Shown: positions 4,056 to 63,522 of the stretch, piece by piece
How positions within the stretch are numbered: position 1 is the first letter of the stretch
Layout of the letters: every line of letters starts with the position of its first letter
From: Halorubrum aquaticum
GTDB lineage: Archaea > Halobacteriota > Halobacteria > Halobacteriales > Haloferacaceae
Assembly: GCF_900113615.1 (NCBI RefSeq)
Contig: NZ_FOPZ01000004.1
Coordinates: 62,001-126,000 of the forward strand
DNA length: 64,000 nt
Direction: 5' to 3'
Notes under the pieces: model-generated
Seen by the model: only the letters and a program-made list of their open reading frames with translations
What the model was told of the DNA's origin: nothing
Databases searched by the model: none
Made by a program: the position numbers and the translations under genes

Positions 4056-5069
4056 TCACAGGGAGAAGGGCCCCGCTCCAGCGGTTCGCTGGGCGACCGT
4101 TGTGAGCCGGAGCATGTACGCGGTCAACACGAGAAACGGAGCCAGCGCGATCGTGAACACGGTCGCGACGAAGCTCATCAGGGGCGGGAGACCGAAGACC
4201 CACGCATCCGGCAGGAGCTCCGCGTTGATCGCGAGAATGGCCGACGCGGTGACGAGGATCGATGGCAGCGAGACCACGAGGAGCGTCCGCGACAGCTGGG
4301 ACACCTCCCGAGTGTAATACAGCGTTTTGAAGTACTCCTTGCCGGTCGCGAACAGCTGGAACGCCTGGATGAGGTCGTCCAGCCGTTCGTCGAACGTATC
4401 GGATAGTTCGCCCTCGTGGGAGCTCCGCAGCGTCCGCGAGCGATCCATGAACGTCCCGTACTCCGTCTCCAGACCGATCCAGAGGACACCGAACTCCGTG
4501 CCGGAGGCACTGTCGGCGTGGTCACCCAGCGGCTCGACCGTTTTGATGACCTCGTCGACGAACGTCTGTATATCCCGGGTTAGGTCCTCGTCGCTCCCCG
4601 TGGCGACCCCCTCGACGGCGTTCGCGCGGTCGTGAATGACCGATGCCATCAGATCGAGGAACGAGGCCGGATCCGTGGGGTTCTGTCCGCTCTCGGCCAG
4701 CCGACCGACGTCCCGTCGGAACTGCATGACTCCCTGGATACGGTTCCCCTGCGTCTCCACGGAGGTGATGTCGTGGGAGAGCACGGTCGAGTTGATCGAC
4801 ACCACGATCGACACGAGCAGGATGATGCCACTCAACAGCGAACTCAGGATGCTCTGGACCGCCGGCGTCTCCGTGAGGACCCTTTGCATCTCGAAGGGCC
4901 AGACCGACCCGATGAGCATGAGCGCCGAGAACATAAACGACAGCAACGCGCCGGTGACCGCGAGTCGATCGGCCTCCAGCAGGACCCATCGGATCAGGTT
5001 GAACCGCCCGTTTCGCTGCGGGACCGGGAACCAGTCGCGGAAGCTCCAGTAGTAGTCGACGACGCTCAT
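4056..5069 (-). CDS. Haloarchaeal multi-pass membrane protein, paralogue of the 11219-12196 gene
   Basis: A 337-residue protein of unknown function. Two membrane helices lie in the first 110 residues (LLSFMFSALMLIGSVW; ILSSLLSGIILLVSIVVSI) followed by the conserved SINSTVLSHDIT. A cytosolic helical domain of about 150 residues comes next (DVGRLAESGQNPTDPASFLDL...), then two or three C-terminal helices ending LRLTTVAQRTAGAGPFSL. The protein encoded at 11219-12196 has the same plan with SINQLVMSRVTG, then SPNDPAAFLSLIA, then LRVATVARRTVSVGPFIPP, so the two are clearly paralogues. The frame extends upstream to 5135 through an Arg-rich stretch; the ATG at 5067-5069 gives a natural start. Confidence 0.75.
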   Translation of the reverse strand: MSVVDYYWSFRDWFPVPQRNGRFNLIRWVLLEADRLAVTGALLSFMFSALMLIGSVWPFEMQRVLTETPAVQSILSSLLSGIILLVSIVVSINSTVLSHDITSVETQGNRIQGVMQFRRDVGRLAESGQNPTDPASFLDLMASVIHDRANAVEGVATGSDEDLTRDIQTFVDEVIKTVEPLGDHADSASGTEFGVLWIGLETEYGTFMDRSRTLRSSHEGELSDTFDERLDDLIQAFQLFATGKEYFKTLYYTREVSQLSRTLLVVSLPSILVTASAILAINAELLPDAWVFGLPPLMSFVATVFTIALAPFLVLTAYMLRLTTVAQRTAGAGPFSL

Positions 5070-5357
5070 GGCCGCGTCGCTTCGAACTCGACGACGAGCG
5101 CGTGCTCGACGCCGAACCGCCACCCGTCCCGACACGTCCTGCCGGAGGCGAACGAGGGCCGTCGAACGGGAGGCCCACAGCTCCCGTTTGCGGGATCGTG
5201 TCTCACGATCCTACACACCGGGTGTCCCCAAGTGCGTCGAACCGATCGGACCCACGAACGTCAGTTCCCGTCACGCCGAGGAGCGGGCTCATCGGGAACG
5301 CGATCAGTGTATCGACGATCGCCATGGGAGTCACGCGGCTCTGAGCGTGATAAGGTC

Positions 5358-5376
5358 GGGGCTTGCGAGCGCAACC
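5358..5376. repeat. Short GC palindrome (copy 2 of 3)
   Basis: The sequence gggcttgcgagcgcaaccc can form a hairpin with TTGCG/CGCAA arms. Closely similar elements lie at 3250-3267 and 10620-10638, each in an intergenic stretch. This copy sits in the gap after the permease gene stop at 5400. Confidence 0.4.
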
Positions 5377-5399
5377 CGAGACGGCCCGTGGCCTCGATC

Positions 5400-6668
5400 T
5401 CAACTCTCAGCCGGATCCGGGTCACGGTCGAGGTCGGAACCGGAATCGTCGTCCTGAGTGTCGTCCTGGGCGTCGTCCTGGGTGTCGTCCTGGGCGTCGT
5501 CTCGTTCGGCTCGCGCCTCCTGTGGATCCGTCCCGATCTCCTCCGCGACAGTCGCCTCGGGACGGAGTTGCTCCCCGCTGAGCAGTTCCGGGAGGACGAT
5601 CCGGATCGCCTCGAGGACGAGCACGAACAGGATCGGCATGAGGAAGAACCCGTACCAGCCGAACAGGATCGGTCCGATCAGGTAGGCGAACAACAGCAAG
5701 ATCGGATCGATCCGTCGCCCGGACAGGTAGGGCTGTAGGAAGGACTGTGGCAGGACGTCCAGAAGGAGCACGTAGGCCACGAGGACGACCCCGACGAAGA
5801 CGAGGCTTCCCTGGCTTTGATCGGTGCTGACGGCTTGGAAGCCGAGGGACGCGACGATGGGAATGTAGACGATCTTGCCGACGACGACGGGTATCAGGCT
5901 CGCGAGTCCGGTCAGGATCCCGGCCACGAGCACCATCGGTACTTGGAGTCCAGGCGGCGCCACGAGGTTCGTTACTGCGTACGTGACGGTCGCCAGGACG
6001 GACGAGGCGACGACGAACAGCAGGTTGCCGAAAAACACCGATTCCAAGTCGGCGTCGACCGCGACGGCGTACGCGTACGCCGTCGAATCGCGCCCCCCGA
6101 ACAGCTCGATCAGGCCCTCCGAGACGTCGGCGTCGTTGGCGAGCAGGAAGTACGCCAGCGTCGTGGCGAGTCCAAGCAGGAACAGCCCGCCCAGTACGCC
6201 TTGGAGCGCGGTCACGGCGGTCCCCACGTTGGACCAGAACGAGCCGCTCGCGTCGAGGGCCGACGAGGGGTTCGAAAGCAGCGACACCAGCTGATCACGT
6301 TGTCCCGTCGAGAGCGCACCGACACCCGTGATCCGGGAGATGAGCGTACCGACGAGTTCTCCGCCCTCGAACTGGCGCTGAACGGCCTGGAACAGACGGA
6401 GGCCGGCGAGCACGAACAGCAGCAGGATCGGGACCAGGACGGACAGCGCCGTAAGCATCGCCGCGAGGTGTCGGGAGCCCGTTACCGACCTAAGCCGGAC
6501 GCAGATCGGCCGAGTGGCGTAGTAGCCGAACAGCCCCAAGACGACGAGTCCGATGAAGGAGCCGACGACGTACGCGACTGCCGCGCCGAGGAGGAAGACG
6601 AACGCCCACCAACCGAGCCTGGCGCGGGGCGGCAATCGATCCGTGAGTTCGCTCTCGACTCGGTCCAT
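5400..6668 (-). CDS. AI-2E family permease-like membrane protein
   Basis: A 422-residue protein of the AI-2E transporter/PerM family (PF01594). Eight membrane segments are visible, with the family's paired N-terminal helices, the long periplasmic-type loop (about residues 110-170) and the conserved C-terminal block GPILFGWYGFFLMPILFVLVLE. In haloarchaea the substrate is unknown; some relatives move small solutes or sodium ions. The C-terminus is an unusual acidic tail with repeats of DDAQDDTQ, encoded by a near-perfect DNA repeat at about 5448-5503. The ATG at 6666-6668 follows the stop of a 66-codon frame by one base, so the two may form an operon. Confidence 0.85.
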   Translation of the reverse strand: MDRVESELTDRLPPRARLGWWAFVFLLGAAVAYVVGSFIGLVVLGLFGYYATRPICVRLRSVTGSRHLAAMLTALSVLVPILLLFVLAGLRLFQAVQRQFEGGELVGTLISRITGVGALSTGQRDQLVSLLSNPSSALDASGSFWSNVGTAVTALQGVLGGLFLLGLATTLAYFLLANDADVSEGLIELFGGRDSTAYAYAVAVDADLESVFFGNLLFVVASSVLATVTYAVTNLVAPPGLQVPMVLVAGILTGLASLIPVVVGKIVYIPIVASLGFQAVSTDQSQGSLVFVGVVLVAYVLLLDVLPQSFLQPYLSGRRIDPILLLFAYLIGPILFGWYGFFLMPILFVLVLEAIRIVLPELLSGEQLRPEATVAEEIGTDPQEARAERDDAQDDTQDDAQDDTQDDDSGSDLDRDPDPAES

Positions 6669-12564: not shown

Positions 12565-13761
12565 CTACTCGCGGGCGATCGGCGTCGTCATACAGTGGAG
12601 GCCGCCGGCCCCGTTCGTGAGCGCGGCCCGGGGGATCCCGACGTCGTCGGGGAGCACGGTCACGCCCCGGTCGCGGAGCGCCTCGATCGTGGGGTTGTCT
12701 TCGGGCCGGTACTCACCCTCCTCGTCGGGCTCGTAGAGCGGGATCACGGTTCCGTCGTCGATGGCGAGGAAGTTGGTCGGCCACCGCTCCCCGTCGGCGA
12801 CGTCGATCACGTCGAACCCCTTCTCGTCGCGCACGTACTCGAGCGTCGAGGTCGTGTGGCTGAGTTCGTAGGAATCGCCGCGACGCCGGTAGACGTCGAC
12901 GTCGGCCGCCTTCGCCAGGTCCGCGTCGAGCACGGCCAACCCCTCGGCGGCGATGTTGAACCAGCCGAGCAGGTGCATCACGCGGGATCCGAGCCCGCGG
13001 TCGACCCGCACCCGCCGGTCCGCCTCGAGGGGGGCACGGACGAGCCCGAACTCGTCGTACGAGACCGCACCCTCGTCCATCAGCCGCTCGCCCGCCTCGT
13101 AGCTCGTCCGGATGACGTGCTCCTCGCCGTCCACCTCGGCCGAGACGCCGAGCAGCGCGAACTCCCCGGCGGGCATGAACTCGCCACCCTCGAGCGGTTC
13201 GCCCGCCATCTCGTAACGGAGGTCCGCGCCGATCGACTCCCAGGCGCGCTTGACGATCGGCTCCTCCCGTCGCCGGATCGGCTTCGACATGTGACAGAGG
13301 ATCGGTCCCCGGTCCCCGACGATCGTCGTGTCACGCTGGAAGTAGACGTTCGAGATCGGCGCGTCGAGGGTCACCGACGCGCCGTCGGTTCCCCCGTCCG
13401 CCGTCGTCTCCGGCGTGAGGCTCGGCCGCGAGAGCACGATCTGGAGCTTCTCTCGAGGCGAGAACGTCGCGAGCACGTCGTCGATCCGGTCGACGCCGCC
13501 CGCCTCGAGTGCGTCCCGCGTCAGGTCGTCGAGCGCGCCCCCGGCCGCGAGGTCGTCGGCGAGTCGATGGACCTCGACGTGGGTCGACTTGAGCGTGTCG
13601 ACGAGCTGCTCGTGCTCGCGCCGCGCCTGTTCGGGGGGAACGTGGTCCTCGAACAGGTTCGCCTCGGGCGCGAGGCTCCCGGACCACAGTTCGAGCCCCG
13701 GCGTGTGTACCCTGACCGCCGAGAGCCGTTCCCACTCCGCACGGACCGAATACTCGGACAT
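12565..13761 (-). CDS. Arginine deiminase family protein
   Basis: A 398-residue protein of the arginine deiminase/amidinotransferase superfamily. Its members hydrolyse arginine to citrulline and ammonia, or act on related guanidino compounds. The sequence shows the early RVHTPG element, FQRDT (family form F-T/x-R-D), LEGGEF holding the substrate-binding Glu, and the C-terminal active-site motif NGAGGLHCMTTP with the nucleophilic Cys near residue 390. In halophilic archaea arginine fermentation uses arcABC; no arcB or arcC lies nearby, so the gene may instead serve arginine breakdown on its own. The length fits the family. The ATG at 13759-13761 gives a natural start. Confidence 0.85.
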   Translation of the reverse strand: MSEYSVRAEWERLSAVRVHTPGLELWSGSLAPEANLFEDHVPPEQARREHEQLVDTLKSTHVEVHRLADDLAAGGALDDLTRDALEAGGVDRIDDVLATFSPREKLQIVLSRPSLTPETTADGGTDGASVTLDAPISNVYFQRDTTIVGDRGPILCHMSKPIRRREEPIVKRAWESIGADLRYEMAGEPLEGGEFMPAGEFALLGVSAEVDGEEHVIRTSYEAGERLMDEGAVSYDEFGLVRAPLEADRRVRVDRGLGSRVMHLLGWFNIAAEGLAVLDADLAKAADVDVYRRRGDSYELSHTTSTLEYVRDEKGFDVIDVADGERWPTNFLAIDDGTVIPLYEPDEEGEYRPEDNPTIEALRDRGVTVLPDDVGIPRAALTNGAGGLHCMTTPIARE

Positions 13762-13804
13762 GTCTCCGACTCTCCGTCGGAGTCGAAAAAGCTCCCGGCC
13801 GCGG

Positions 13805-14587
13805 TCACTGGAGCCGCTTCGTCGTCTCGACGAGCGGGTGGCGCGCGTAATCCACCACCTCGATGTCGGCGATCGAGTCCAAGCCCTCCTTCTCCGCGGT
13901 CTTGGCCATCCCGAGGTCGACGGGGCTCCTCGTGACGATCACGTACGCGTCCATCGACTCGAGCCCCATCTCGTGGGCGGCCATCACGCGGTGGTGACCG
14001 TCCGCGAGGTGGAGGACGCCGCCGTTGTCGATGACGACGAGCGGCTCCGCGAGCCCGCGGTCCAGTTCGTACTGTCTCCCCTCCAGCTCGTCGGCGTACA
14101 CCCGCGCCTGCGTGGGCGTGAGGTCGTCGAGGCGGACGTCGCGACGCTCCTCGTCGAGCTCGACGCCGTGGATCTGCTCGAGGGTACGCATCAGTTTGCC
14201 GACCTTTCCCGGCGTCGCCCGCTCGATCTGTGAGCGGACGACGTCCGCGTTCGAGATGATGCCGACGAGGTTGTCGGCGTCGTCAACGACCGGGAGCTTC
14301 TGGATCCCCGACCGCAGTATCACGCGGGCGGCGTCGGTGACCTTCATGTCGGGGTGGGCGACGATCAAGTCCTCGGACATCACCGTGAACACGGGGGCGT
14401 CCTCGTCGGCCAGGAGCAGGTCGCCCGCGGAGACGAATCCCTCGACGGTTCGCCCCTGCGTGACGGGAAACCCCTTGTGGCCGGCCGTCTCGACCATTCG
14501 TTTCGCGACGGTCGCCACCGTGTCGTCGGGGCTGACGGTCTCGACGTCCCGGGTCATGTACTCGCCGACCGTCGGCTTTCCGGACAT
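13805..14587 (-). CDS. CBS-domain protein with ParB-like nuclease domain
   Basis: A 260-residue protein. Two CBS domains occupy about residues 1-125 (VGEYMTRDVETVSPDDTVAT; VFTVMSEDLIVAHPDMKVTD), which in general sense adenine nucleotides. The remainder is ParB/sulfiredoxin-like: DLTPTQARVYADELEGRQYE, then LVVIDNGGVLHLADGHHRVM with the catalytic-site-like ADGHHRVMAAHEMG. Such proteins are annotated as CBS-ParB partition-like proteins in archaea, but a kinase or regulatory role is equally possible. It lies 54 bases downstream of LonB on the same strand, so it may be read from the LonB promoter. Confidence 0.8.
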   Translation of the reverse strand: MSGKPTVGEYMTRDVETVSPDDTVATVAKRMVETAGHKGFPVTQGRTVEGFVSAGDLLLADEDAPVFTVMSEDLIVAHPDMKVTDAARVILRSGIQKLPVVDDADNLVGIISNADVVRSQIERATPGKVGKLMRTLEQIHGVELDEERRDVRLDDLTPTQARVYADELEGRQYELDRGLAEPLVVIDNGGVLHLADGHHRVMAAHEMGLESMDAYVIVTRSPVDLGMAKTAEKEGLDSIADIEVVDYARHPLVETTKRLQ

Positions 14588-55493: not shown

Positions 55494-55649
55494 GAGAGAG
55501 TACGTTTCGTCTGTCCAGGTTGCCATCCGTCTCGACGTGTCGTGGAGGAGACGGAGAGTACATTTCTTCTGTCTCGACAAGTAACTCCGAACGCCACGTG
55601 TCGAGCTGGTACTGAGAGAACGATACTGAGAGAGTACGTTTCGTCTGTC
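55494..55649 (-). repeat. Origin-recognition-box-like repeats, group A (downstream of orc1)
   Basis: Three copies of an approximately 22-base element lie at 55494-55515, 55554-55575 and 55628-55649. The first and third are identical (gagtacgtttcgtctgtc as the shared core); the second differs at two positions. Read on the minus strand they are GACAGACGAAACGTACTC. They are the mirror orientation of the group at 57011-57295. Confidence 0.75.
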
Positions 55650-55681
55650 TTACTCGGAAGAGTGGAGGGGCTGTCCTGACA

Positions 55682-56884
55682 TCAACGGGGATCGCGCTCC
55701 GTTTCGATCTCCCGTCTGATGTCGAGAACAATCTCGGGATCGAGATCCAGACTGTACTCGTAGTACCTTCCGCCACTCTCACCGTGATTCTGGCCACTTC
55801 GCTGGAGGAATCCGAGCATGTGGAGATCCGAGAGATGGTTCTGAATACTCTTGAGCGTCGTGAGCGGATCGGCCGCGTGAGACGCAGCGACGTCTTCGTA
55901 CCGAGTTTTGATCGTCTTCGAACGAGTCGGTGTATCCCCTCGCTGCTCGATGTACGCGAGGGTTTCCAAGAGGAGTTGGGCGTGCTGGGTCTGGTCTCGG
56001 ATCCGATTTCGTAACCGTCCACGTTGAACGAGTTCCTGTGCCTCAACGATGTGTGAATCGTCGACGTGATCGTCGCCCCGCTTTTTGGCCACTTCTCCAC
56101 CGACCCGAAGGAGATCGATCGCCTGTCGTGCGTTACCCCGATCCTTCGCTGCGATCGCCGCTGCTCTCGCGATTGCCGAGTCGTCACAGACGCCGTCAAC
56201 GAACGCACGGTCGATGCGGTCGTCGAGTATCGCTCGTAGTTCGCTCGCGTCGTACGGGCTAAAGGAGATCTCAGATTCCATCAGCGTGTCTTTGACCTTC
56301 GGAGAGAGACTCCGTCTGAAAGTGTAGTTGTTACTGATCCCGATGATGCCGATCTTCGAGTTCGTGATGTGACCGATCGATCTCGCACGAGGCAGTTCAT
56401 ACAGGAGCGTATCGACGTCATCGAGGTGATCGATCTCGTCGAAGACGACGAGGTGTGTTCCGCCGAGCCGATCGAGTTGAGCGTAGAGTTCCTCGAACGC
56501 GTCGGACGTACTCAATCCACGTTTCGGAAACACGCTCGCAGTCTCCGGAAGTAGTTCGTTGACGAGCGTACGGACGACGGAGTAGACGGTCTTCCCGTTA
56601 CAGTTCAACTCGTGGACGTGTAACTCGTCGGCGTCCGGCCGTTCCGTGATCTCGTCTCGGAGTGCTTCCATCATGTATTTCGTGACGGCGGTTTTCCCGA
56701 GGCCCGCCTTCCCGTACAACATGACGTTCTGTGGAGTCCGACCGAAGAGAACGTCCTGGAGCGCGTGGCGATACTCGTCGATCTCCTCGTCACGCTCAAG
56801 GATCTTATCGGGTTGATGATCCTCTGAGAGGACCTCTTTGGCAGCAAATATCGATCGCTCGATGTCGCTGAACGGCCCGGCCAT
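55682..56884 (-). CDS. Orc1/Cdc6 replication initiator
   Basis: A 400-residue archaeal origin-binding AAA+ protein that recognises origin boxes and loads the MCM helicase. It has Walker A YGKAGLGKTAVT (58-69), Walker B LVVFDEIDHL (145-154), sensor 1 GIIGISNNYTFR, sensor 2 region NARQAIDLLR and a C-terminal winged helix (DPLTTLKSIQNHLSDLHMLG) that contacts DNA. The TATA-like ttatatttaaaac lies about 31 bases upstream of the ATG at 56882-56884; the frame extends to 56962 but the extension is promoter DNA. Repeats of ORB type flank both sides of the gene. Confidence 0.95.
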   Translation of the reverse strand: MAGPFSDIERSIFAAKEVLSEDHQPDKILERDEEIDEYRHALQDVLFGRTPQNVMLYGKAGLGKTAVTKYMMEALRDEITERPDADELHVHELNCNGKTVYSVVRTLVNELLPETASVFPKRGLSTSDAFEELYAQLDRLGGTHLVVFDEIDHLDDVDTLLYELPRARSIGHITNSKIGIIGISNNYTFRRSLSPKVKDTLMESEISFSPYDASELRAILDDRIDRAFVDGVCDDSAIARAAAIAAKDRGNARQAIDLLRVGGEVAKKRGDDHVDDSHIVEAQELVQRGRLRNRIRDQTQHAQLLLETLAYIEQRGDTPTRSKTIKTRYEDVAASHAADPLTTLKSIQNHLSDLHMLGFLQRSGQNHGESGGRYYEYSLDLDPEIVLDIRREIETERDPR

Positions 56885-56885
56885 T

Positions 56886-56940
56886 GGTCTATTAGCTAAC
56901 ACTGCCCAATTATATTTAAAACCTGCTTTTGTTAGTCTCG
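56886..56940. other. AT-rich segment, candidate duplex-unwinding element and orc1 promoter
   Basis: Between the orc1 start and the first group-B-side repeats lies a markedly AT-rich segment (actgcccaattatatttaaa and cctgcttttgttag). It contains the orc1 TATA box at about 56910-56920 and a short inverted pair ctaaca/tgttag at about 56896 and 56930. In archaeal origins such a segment is where strands open; this role is inferred. Confidence 0.55.
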
Positions 56941-57010
56941 TTTGTCTTTGTCGTGCGTCCACCCGTCTCGATGGTTTTCCACGTCACACGGGCGCAACGG
57001 TTCCCACGAA

Positions 57011-57295
57011 GACAGACGAAAGCCACTCTCCGTGTGAGCCACGACGACCGTGTTCACCGGTGAACGCCACGCAACGAATCCAAGACACACGAAACGAACT
57101 CTCTCCCAGTGAAGCACACGCTCCCAAGAATCGAAACGCCGAACGACGGCACAGGACACTACGTGTGAGAGCCACCCACACAGCGGACGCTCGTCGACCG
57201 AGCCGTTCGACAACGTCGAAGACAGACGAAATATACCGTCCGTGTATCGCTTCCGGCCATGATTCCGACCACAAGACAGACGAAACGTACTCTCC
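57011..57295 (+). repeat. Origin-recognition-box-like repeats, group A (upstream of orc1)
   Basis: Four related elements on the plus strand: 57011-57031 (gacagacgaaagccactctc), 57083-57107 (agacacacgaaacgaactct), 57221-57241 (gacagacgaaatataccgtc) and 57274-57295 (gacagacgaaacgtactctc). They share GACAGACGAAA plus CTCTCC with the group at 55494-55649 but point the other way, so the orc1 gene and the AT-rich segment lie between opposed arrays. I take them as binding sites for the Orc1 protein encoded here. Confidence 0.7.
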
Positions 57296-57344
57296 CATCG
57301 AGGGAAACGACGACTTAGCAAATCGGTTCGTAGGAAACCGCCGA

Positions 57345-57905
57345 GACACCGAACTTCGGTCGATCCTCACGACGTGAGTCGAGAAAGCGTTGATCGAGGA
57401 TGCGTGGGACGATTCGGCGATCAAACTCGCTGCGGCCAACGCAGCAAAGGACACTGGAAGCGCACGGCAAGCCATCGACCTGCTCCGAGAGGGTGGCGAC
57501 GTTGCCGAGGAGAACGGTGCCAGCGAGGTCACGGATGAACACATCGAGGTCGCGGTCGATCGCGTTCAGCGCGGTCGTGTCGAGAACAAGCTGCGTGATC
57601 AGACCATGCACGGTCAATTGATCCTCGAAGCACTCGCGAAACTCGAAGTCAGCGGATCGACGCCCGCCAAGTCGAAGGAAGTACAGCAGGCATACGTTCG
57701 CGTAGCTGAAGGGAGACAGCAAGACCCGCTCACCACGCTCAAGAGTATCCAAAATCATCTCGCCGATCTCACCATGCTCGGGTTTCTCGAACGAACTGAA
57801 CACAACGAGGGACGCGCAGGTGGCGCCCACTACCAGTACGAGCTGGCACTCGATCCGACCATCGTCCTCGAAACGCGGGATGCGATCGAAGCCGAGTCGA
57901 CGTGA
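57345..57905 (+). pseudogene. Degenerate second orc1/cdc6 copy (5' truncated, nonsense mutation)
   Basis: The reading frame matches residues about 213-400 of the intact Orc1 in this window: DTELRSILTT here versus DASELRAILDD there, then DDSAIKLAAANAAKDTGSAR versus DDSAIARAAAIAAKDRGNAR, and DPLTTLKSIQNHLADLTMLG versus DPLTTLKSIQNHLSDLHMLG. The AAA+ domain is missing upstream, and an in-frame TGA at 57375-57377 interrupts the piece where the homologue has a normal residue (a CGA to TGA change would explain it). The winged-helix part is otherwise intact and could be translated from a TTG at 57390, but I take it as a remnant. Confidence 0.85.
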
Positions 57906-57923
57906 AGCCCTCTTTTGGGAGGC

Positions 57924-58042
57924 AGAACAGACGAAACGAGGGGTGTGTCCGGTAGACCTTCGAGACCATGGGCCGTGACGATACGTCGTGAAACGAGTGG
58001 AGGGTGTTCAACTGGAGAAGAACAGACGAAACGAGGGGTGTG
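57924..58042 (+). repeat. Origin-box-like repeats, group B (beside the orc1 remnant)
   Basis: Two identical 24-base copies, at 57924-57947 and 58019-58042, share acagacgaaacgaggggtg. A degenerate third copy (gtgaaacgagtggagggtg) lies between them at about 57988-58006. The ACGAAACGAGGGG form is closer to the published haloarchaeal ORB with its G-string end than group A is. They are probably the binding sites of the lost second Orc1. Confidence 0.65.
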
Positions 58043-58142
58043 GGTTCGAACCATGTGTTCGAATTCGACGAATCGTACGGGGTCTATGCCCTTCTCGGGA
58101 GGATAGAAGGGCTTCATATCGAGAGATCGGATTTATCGGAGA

Positions 58143-59842: not shown

Positions 59843-60334
59843 CTAACTTAGATCAAATATACCCATCTCAAAGCTCTGATCTGCCTGGAAGGTCTCCTCA
59901 AGTATGATAGACTCACTGGGCACGTGAATAACTCTCACACGGTAGTTTTCACCACTGGCAACATCAACAGTAGGGGCATCACCTGCCGCAATGCTTGCAT
60001 TCTGACCAGAGACGGATTCTCCGACGGAGAATCCACTACTAACTTCTCCCACAGTAACGCTCTCATCATTTGTCACATCAGTGAAAATCACTTCCATTTC
60101 TCCACCAGGAATTGGATCCCCACCGCCGTGTTCAATGGTAATTCCTTGGTTGGTCTCGTCAACGTCAGAAGTCAATTGTGCGCTCGGCTGATTGTCTCCG
60201 AGCGAGTCACCGAGTCCGAGCACGAACGTCCCGATGACGGCAGCCAGGATGACGGTGATTGCGACCATCAATATGACGCCGATCACGGGACTCACAGCAC
60301 GGTCGTCTGTGTTGAACAGTTTGTTTGGTTTCAT
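59843..60334 (-). CDS. Type IV pilin-like protein
   Basis: A 163-residue haloarchaeal pilin with a class III signal peptide. The N-terminus [20 protein letters not shown] has the prepilin-peptidase cleavage context [10 protein letters not shown], followed by the hydrophobic assembly helix [20 protein letters not shown]. The extracellular part has beta-rich sequence ([20 protein letters not shown]). It would be assembled by a PilB/PilC pair such as that at 19-23 kb. GC content is lower than in most of the window. The upstream frame to 60454 is non-coding AT-rich DNA. Confidence 0.88.
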
Positions 60335-60507
60335 AGTTGAACCCAGCTGTTCACCGATTCGAGCGGACGAACATATCTTTCGACCCCTCGACCGGTTGCT
60401 GGTTAATAGAAGATAAGGGAACCCTGTATAAGTATTTGCTGGCACGAATATCACGGATGAAAATTAGTTCAATAGAGTGAAAACGTCTAACGTATAAGAT
60501 GTGCTTA

Positions 60508-62286: not shown

Positions 62287-63288
62287 ATGCCGTTCAGCGT
62301 CACATGGCACACGCTCCTCGACGAGTGCGAGGGTCTCGCCGCGGATGCGACTCTGCTCACACCACTCTCTCAGGATCGTTTCCAGATCACCGACGTACAG
62401 GAACACCGAATCGTCGTCGAATTTCTCGACCGTGACGTGGACGAGACACGGCCGCTCCAGCGCGACCAGTTCGAGACGCTCTACGAGCGCATCAGTGACG
62501 CTTCCGATGGATTCGATCTTTCGCGGCTCCCGCCCGATGCCGATCCGTATCCCGCCGTGTTGAGTCTGCATCCCCGATTCGAGGTCGGCGAGAGCGCGGG
62601 TGTGATCCGCGAAACCGACGAACCGACCGGAAGCCAGATCATCACGGGAGCAGACGACACCGAATCAGCGGAGGAAGCCACCGAGCGCACGGAGCCCGAC
62701 GTGGATGTCTACAGCGATGCGCTCCTTCTCATCGATGCGCTAGAGCGGAACGATCTCTCCTCGCTCAAGGCGCTCGATACGCCCGCCCTCATCAATCTCT
62801 ACACCTTGCTCTCGGACATTCAGCGCGATGCCAACGACCTGCGCCAGAACGTGACCAACGTGTTGTTGGATCGGCTGCACCACGACCAGCCCGTTCACGG
62901 CCAGTTCGGCTCCGTGCAACGAACGGCGCGTCGCAACCGAGACCTCAGAGACGACGAGGAGGTACTGGCTACGCTGGAGGACGCGGGCATCGACCGCGAG
63001 CGCGTGTTGAGCGTCGACCGCGACAAGGTCGATTCCGCTCTCGACGTGACGGAACTCTCCGAATCGGACGTGTACGACATCGAGGAGACGGAGTACGTCC
63101 GGAAGGCCGAAGTGGATGAGGAACAGCGAGAAACGCGACTACAAGGACTGAAAGATCGGCTCGCCACGAGCGACGACCCCGAGGCCACGGAACTTCGCGA
63201 GGAGATCGAAGAACTGGAGAGCCGGATCGAAGAGTTGACGCAGTTTAAGACCGGACGAGAGTATCACACCCAGTCGAGAGCAGAATGA
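62287..63288 (+). CDS. Conserved haloarchaeal accessory-region protein with C-terminal coiled coil
   Basis: A 333-residue protein of unknown function. The N-terminal 100 residues contain SQDRFQITDVQEHRIVVEFL and PLQRDQFETLYERI; a middle linker is acidic; residues about 240-330 form a long helical coiled coil (RDKVDSALDVTELSESDVYD ... ELREEIEELESRIEELTQFK). From memory, similar proteins occur on haloarchaeal plasmids. Its TGA overlaps the ATG of the next gene (ATGA at 63285). Confidence 0.6.
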   Translation: MPFSVTWHTLLDECEGLAADATLLTPLSQDRFQITDVQEHRIVVEFLDRDVDETRPLQRDQFETLYERISDASDGFDLSRLPPDADPYPAVLSLHPRFEVGESAGVIRETDEPTGSQIITGADDTESAEEATERTEPDVDVYSDALLLIDALERNDLSSLKALDTPALINLYTLLSDIQRDANDLRQNVTNVLLDRLHHDQPVHGQFGSVQRTARRNRDLRDDEEVLATLEDAGIDRERVLSVDRDKVDSALDVTELSESDVYDIEETEYVRKAEVDEEQRETRLQGLKDRLATSDDPEATELREEIEELESRIEELTQFKTGREYHTQSRAE

Positions 63289-63522
63289 TCAGCGGACTCC
63301 CCGACCGGCCGCTCTTGGCTAGCGAGACACTCACATTGTCCCACGAGCGTGACAACCTACTCGTGATACCGACGACTCCGGACAGTCTTGTCGGAGACGA
63401 CGGAACGCTTGGCGGCATTCGGGACATCCTCGTGTTCACGGCGAACGTCGTGGCGTCTCTCGCATACACCGACGCGGACGGCTGGACAGTCGTGGCAAAG
63501 GCTACTGATCCATCAAAATTTG
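63285..63522 (+). pseudogene. Gene interrupted by the IS5-family element
   Basis: The frame begins MISGLPDRPLLASETLTLSH and continues LVIPTTPDSLVGDDGTLGGI RDILVFTANVVASLAYTDAD with good coding character up to about SKF, where the sequence changes to that of the insertion element. Translation would run on into the element until 63638. It is translationally coupled to the upstream coiled-coil gene. Function unknown. Confidence 0.65.

Follow-up and report, generated by a model that had tools for sequence, protein, structure and literature searches.

The locus described here, in a 64,000-nucleotide stretch of Halorubrum aquaticum DNA (the window), is probably a replicator-initiator module built on an orc1/cdc6 gene, of a haloarchaeal family in which the boxes carry a terminal pyrimidine tail (TACTCTC), and it appears to have replaced an older origin in place. 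It is most likely a chromosomal origin module that displaced its predecessor, and the window keeps traces of one origin replacing another. Directly readable in the DNA are an intact initiator gene, boxes pointing outward on both of its flanks, a box and tail found throughout a clade, half-boxes at the promoter, and a resident initiator gene whose 5′ half has been replaced. The G-string has been described as a signature of ORBs (PMC7776575) and is essential in oriC1 of Haloarcula hispanica (PMC3936714), and surveys retained only repeats with a G-string as a selection criterion (PMC3528665, PMC4595724). Boxes with a pyrimidine tail would not have passed such a filter; of 154 haloarchaeal orc genes in one survey, about a third were assigned no origin (PMC3528665). 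Given a class that lacks the G-string, haloarchaeal origin counts are probably too low. Orc1 genes with adjacent boxes, boxes on two flanks and origin turnover are already known (PMC3528665, PMC3936714, PMC4441112). No pyrimidine-tailed class linked with an Orc1 clade and with an altered initiator-specific motif was found in the literature searched, which included the main text of the surveys.

The initiator gene, its promoter and its boxes

The preliminary description of the window claimed an intact orc1/cdc6 gene, and this is confirmed by profile, Pfam and PDB matches. The predicted protein matches TIGR02928 (E=2e-122) and PDB entry 2v1u (E=6e-53), contains the Pfam domains AAA_16, Cdc6_lid and Cdc6_C, and is an AAA+ protein with Walker motifs, the initiator-specific motif FPK-R122-GLST, a lid and a winged helix. 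The AAA+ ATPase, lid and C-terminal winged helix that define an archaeal Orc1/Cdc6 initiator are all intact. The same architecture of AAA+ plus winged helix is found over the full length of Aeropyrum pernix ORC1 (2v1u) and Sulfolobus solfataricus Orc1-1 (2qby_A), although in their motif, PFTG-LS, a Thr stands where the window protein has Arg122.

All seven repeat copies reported earlier around this gene lie where they had been placed, three on the minus strand downstream and four on the plus strand upstream (Table 1), and both arrays read outward from the gene. The count of seven was incomplete, however, in that two further boxes (57926 and 58021) and a truncated orc1 gene (57350-57905) had been overlooked. 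At least two ORB-like repeats in inverted orientation stand beside the intact gene, as in orc1/cdc6-adjacent haloarchaeal origins; judged by its boxes, the locus is a variant rather than a classical G-string member of that group. It shares with the G-string ORB origins (oriC1 and other families, PMC3528665) a cognate Orc1 gene, inverted arrays and an AT-rich stretch, but its tail is TACTCTC, and a G-string is present in 0/7 of the boxes around the intact gene.

Table 1. Features of the orc1/cdc6 locus, with positions in the window.
Feature	Position	Strand	Sequence or remark
Downstream box 1	55494..55515	-	GACAGACGAAACGTACTCTCTC; 13-base core 55503-55515 exact
Putative incoming origin cassette	55516..57349		edges where homology to syntenic congeners stops and resumes
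Downstream box 2	55553..55573	-	GACAGAAGAAATGTACTCTCC; core 55561-55573, 2 mismatches in 13-base core
Downstream box 3	55628..55649	-	GACAGACGAAACGTACTCTCTC; core 55637-55649 exact
Intact orc1/cdc6, 400 aa	55682..56884	-	ATG at 56884, a start common to homologues
TATA-like element of orc1 promoter	56912..56921	-	TTTTAAATAT; conserved in 9 relatives in upstream alignment
Tandem 9-bp half-boxes	56929..56946	-	GACAAACGA/GACTAACAA; abut promoter
Upstream box 1	57011..57030	+	GACAGACGAAAGCCACTCTC; core with 2 mismatches
Upstream box 2	57084..57105	+	GACACACGAAACGAACTCTCTC; core with 1 mismatch
Upstream box 3	57221..57240	+	GACAGACGAAATATACCGTC; core with 2 mismatches, tail degenerate
Upstream box 4	57275..57295	+	GACAGACGAAACGTACTCTCC; core exact
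Remnant of resident G-string-type orc1	57350..57905	+	last ~183 of 392 codons
Resident box A with G-string	57926..57947	+	AACAGACGAAACGAGGGGTGTG; downstream of remnant
Resident box B with G-string	58021..58042	+	AACAGACGAAACGAGGGGTGTG

The half-boxes at the promoter are oriented opposite to the upstream array. Close relatives show strong conservation of them near -45 to -62 and have in common upstream of orc1 the string AAGACA.ACGAGACAAACAAAAGCAGGTTTTAAATAT, made up of two half-boxes and the abutting TATA-like element; a 9-bp tandem is also seen near -50/-60 upstream of orc1 in distant relatives. The segment 56886-56940 is 64% AT, compared with about 40-49% in the gaps between boxes. The AT richness noted earlier beside the gene start is therefore real, but the segment includes the conserved orc1 promoter. 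Because it is the least stable stretch locally and adjoins the inverted boxes, it may be an unwinding site; as it also contains the promoter, this role is possible but unproven.

Predicted function of the locus

In the proposed arrangement, the upstream boxes, half-boxes and AT-rich stretch would form an origin and an autoregulated promoter, with Orc1 binding at the half-boxes coupling initiation and autoregulation, and the downstream array would either take part in the origin or titrate the initiator, the role proposed for Haloarcula hispanica oriC2D. In that species oriC2-cdc6E has boxes on both sides of its cdc6 gene and a downstream titrating region, oriC2D, whose array restrains its origin, probably by titration (PMC3936714). 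By analogy with these two-flank boxes, a titration role for the downstream array here is plausible. The array here has three boxes, compared with eleven there. Despite the similar layout, the window Orc1 is unlikely to belong to the oriC2-cdc6E family, for which the criterion is an Orc1 at least 80% identical (PMC3528665). That family is apparently a different one: its probable homologue among our loci (L083, a stand-in for the named Cdc6E) is 42% identical and has a TTG motif and GTGG tails. In Natrinema J7, whose cdc6 may lie outside the pyrimidine-tail clade, fragments with predicted origins on both sides of the gene replicate autonomously (PMC5350488).

Decay is seen in several genes of the pyrimidine-tail clade (L093, L098 and L112-L115), and some such origins are therefore dispensable. 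Among relatives, pyrimidine-tail orc1 genes are often decayed or truncated, with another case at 3.3-4.1 kb of L036, which suggests a fast turnover of this origin type. The boxes might serve autoregulation only, with the initiator controlling its own promoter at a dormant or lost origin that does not fire. Such a reading is unlikely, but it has several points in its favor: the tandem half-boxes abut a conserved TATA-like element, the genus has many decayed genes of the clade, Haloferax mediterranei provides a documented case of dormant haloarchaeal origins (PMC4595724), and GC skew gives no origin signal (no origin signature was seen along the window's contig or at the loci of three relatives, and the measure is uninformative here). 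Multi-box arrays on both flanks, conserved across families, are nevertheless more than a promoter operator needs, and the cassette described below kept the gene together with both arrays through transfer.

Two classes of box tail

About 90 related orc1 loci from named genomes, congeners, plasmids and the order were compared. Within 32 of these loci, 171 boxes read ...ACGAAA-C/T-G-TACTCTC, the pyrimidine tail occupying the place of the AGGGGTGTG of a sister clade. Their consensus is [A/G]CA[C/G]ACGAAA[C/T]GTACTCTC, and the accompanying orc1 genes, at least 67% identical to the window Orc1, come from Haloferacaceae, Haloarculaceae, Natrialbaceae, Halococcaceae and Halobacteriaceae, among others. 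The sister clade, with 58-60% identity to the window Orc1, has boxes of the form ACAGACGAAACGAGGGGTGTG; GGG occurs in the tail of 73/86 boxes there (14 loci) and of 6/171 in the pyrimidine-tail clade (32 loci). The core ACAGACGAAAC is identical in both classes and the informative tail positions, +12 to +19, coincide, so that the tails replace each other in register. Downstream arrays are common in the pyrimidine-tail clade. The gene-bracketing arrays and the CTCTC end, which the preliminary description took for local peculiarities, thus prove to be clade-wide features of the relatives' loci, and its proposal of an Orc1 gene with its own origin boxes gains strong support from the conservation of these boxes beside orthologous genes in several haloarchaeal families.

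Phylogenetic trees set the pyrimidine-tail and G-string clades apart with full support, the former, with the window gene, at 100/98. Pyrimidine tails also accompany the L078 gene, which comes from a different genus of the same family, and distant plasmid relatives in Halorussus, Haloferax mediterranei (pHME132), Halocatena and Haladaptatus; orc genes at a still greater distance have G-strings. The tree places the G-string clade inside a set of pyrimidine-tail lineages with modest support (95/88 in one tree, 82 in another), and this nesting suggests that the G-string was regained there.

Some loci depart from the common pattern. Two Haladaptatus plasmid loci (L120 and L121) have C-run tails (TACCCCC) and downstream arrays of ten or more boxes; read on the other strand, such a tail is a G-run pointing the wrong way. 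Pyrimidine-tail boxes, single or in twos, were seen at the edges of intact G-string-type orc1 loci (L108 at 9.76 kb, L110 at 10.51 kb, L104 at 8.93 kb and L107 at 9.6-9.7 kb). No pyrimidine-tail orc1 was detectable at these four loci, and the edge boxes may be relics of earlier origins or sites of cross-talk. One chromosome carries both orc1 types intact, about 7 kb apart (L089, G030:C2, at 4766-5941 and 13013-14209).

Residue 122 and the tail

The clearest difference between the clades near known DNA contacts lies at residues 121-122, where FPK[KR]GL goes with pyrimidine tails and FPETGL or FPETGH with G-strings; distant G-string Orc1s have TTG or ETG at the motif. Residue 122 is Thr in 25/26 G-string loci and Lys or Arg in 58/58 scored pyrimidine-tail loci. 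The rule, first seen in a smaller set and borne out by loci fetched afterwards, holds in 83/84 scored loci, but the tree has only three tail changes, so few independent changes lie behind the link and relatedness explains most of this count. An independent-pairs test of residue 122 against the tail had too few changes, and hence no power, for significance. One locus (L137) combines FPKTG with a G-string and singles out residue 122. The exception (L092_6228, in L092 of G022, orc at about 11.6-12.8 kb) is a distant Orc1 with Arg before the motif Gly and boxes that end GGTGGGGT. From these alignments, the tracking of the box tail by residue 122 is a strong lead, not proof.

The Gly-Leu after residue 122 belongs to the initiator-specific motif mutated in Saccharolobus Orc1-2, and the motif is reported to contact the G-track (PMC9738581). 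The window Orc1 is predicted to bind its boxes with the winged helix on the shared core and the altered initiator-specific motif, Lys-Arg for x-Thr, on the tail. The two sister clades have the box core in common but not the tail, and the most visible change in their proteins affects two residues of the motif touching that tail; they amount to a natural specificity-swap experiment on DNA reading by Orc1.

Neutral drift of a linker, with the boxes read through the shared core ACAGACGAAAC alone, could also produce two kinds of tail. The identity of the core in both classes fits such drift, as do the few boxes of the other class held by L032, L034, L073 and L074, but it is improbable in view of the information in most tail positions (0.7-1.4 bits in both classes), their common register, and the match between tails and a change in the very motif for which contacts to this stretch of the box are reported. 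A broader reading, for which belief and doubt are evenly balanced, is that chromosomal origins of a second kind, with an in-register pyrimidine tail (TACTCTC; TACCCCC in some plasmids), are widespread in haloarchaea and are read by a motif in which Lys/Arg takes the place of Thr beside the Gly-Leu turn, that one nested clade or more probably regained both G-string and Thr, and that the two classes can replace each other at a chromosomal site.

Traces of the resident origin

Four congeners (L108, L109, L110 and L111) have an intact G-string-type orc1 at exactly this place, and L108-L110 align with the window through gltB, uppP and DUF4330 (49.8-55.4 kb). Homology to L108 stops at 55515 and resumes at 57350, at codon ~210 of the resident gene. 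The intervening cassette of 1834 bp carries the new gene, which runs opposite to the resident orc1, together with its boxes; the segment that it replaced, about 1.1 kb, comprised the boxes upstream of the resident gene and its initial ~209 codons. Downstream box 1, whose inner edge is 55515, marks the left edge of the cassette, since it is also present in the G-string-type congeners L108 and L110.

What is left of the resident gene covers part of the lid and the winged helix (Pfam Cdc6_C); the Walker motifs and the initiator-specific motif are lost. It has an in-frame TGA (57375-57377), and its longest ORF (57390-57905) starts with TTG. The region 57350-58074 has 93% nucleotide identity to the intact gene region of L108, and both synteny and tree placement (100/99) put the remnant among the syntenic G-string Halorubrum genes. 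Resident boxes A and B have the same core as the other seven, with the classical end AGGGGTGTG, and occupy the same place and flank in L108, L110 and L111. No second close relative of the lost initiator was found in this genome (99.5% complete), and the two boxes are therefore orphans. The dN/dS of the remnant is about 0.03, as low as between intact genes; either the loss was recent or the fragment is still constrained, two cases that dN/dS does not separate.

The closest relatives of the incoming gene are from Halobellus, Halobacterium, Haloarcula and Halorubrum, and from this conflict between gene tree and taxonomy it follows that transfer occurred. The cassette probably came from another haloarchaeon and would have recombined at the matching box already present at the left edge. 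Box-box recombination is the natural guess for that junction because the box is shared with the congeners there; no such box homology was found to explain the right junction (57349/57350). The turnover of Haloarcula origins in variable regions (oriC3-cdc6D, PMC4441112) is similar in that chromosomal origins are gained, lost and disrupted. There, however, the disruptor is a transposase or the origin a separate gain, whereas here one origin module replaced the 5′ half of another initiator gene along with its upstream boxes.

The resident G-string clade might have been taken for oriC2-cdc6E, since G030 has three boxes downstream of that clade's gene, the number reported for oriC2D of Halorubrum lacusprofundi. 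This identification was dropped, as Haloarcula-like genomes seem to be without close members of the clade and in L083 the downstream boxes number about seven to nine and have GTGG tails.

Earlier the locus had been assigned to accessory DNA and its origin taken as perhaps integrated. The first assignment stands only for the low-GC accessory DNA just beyond, the locus itself being a conserved gltB-uppP-DUF4330 region in which congeners have an intact, different orc1. As to the second, an integrated plasmid or provirus that brought its own origin into the chromosome is very improbable. The evidence of transfer from the gene tree and the start of low-GC accessory DNA next to the locus would agree with it, but the inserted segment is only 1.8 kb with orc1 as its sole gene, no integrase or plasmid backbone genes were seen within it, it has no PLSDB plasmid match at ≥60% identity and no phage match whatever, and the left flank is conserved chromosome. 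Replacement of a chromosomal origin by a small initiator cassette remains our preferred account.

Distribution of the boxes and neighboring DNA

Matches to the core with at most two mismatches number nine in the whole 64 kb window, every one within 55503-58033 (Poisson P 6e-13, from a shuffled rate of 4.71 per 64 kb). Scattering over unrelated sites, named in the preliminary description as evidence against an origin, is not what is found: the tail-bearing 15-mer ACGAAACGTACTCTC, with at most two mismatches, has 8 sites in the 3.18 Mb genome, 5 of them at the orc1 locus, and is nearly confined to it, compared with 0 sites for the reversed 15-mer. One more exact copy of the 12-mer, at C9:21848, lacks both kinds of tail and was taken as chance. 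That the boxes arose by chance, or belong to a mobile or CRISPR-like family with no role in replication, can be practically discounted, since the shortness of the 13-mer core is the sole point in favor and such readings are already refuted by the clustering, the near-confinement to one locus and the conservation of the boxes beside orthologous orc1 genes.

About 18 kb beside the locus, from window 59.2 kb to C4:139.5 kb (L084, L085), is absent from L110 and L111; besides many unknown genes, it encodes a DDE transposase and a protein with a VWD domain. The low-GC DNA extends to about C4:205 kb. A type IV pilin gene (Pilin_N, 59846-60454) lies near the orphan G-string boxes. Finally, window 62423-63522 is 97% identical over 1.1 kb to positions 1-1100 of L098, a locus from another Halorubrum with a broken pyrimidine-tail orc1, and on this identity the shared segment is a recently exchanged element.
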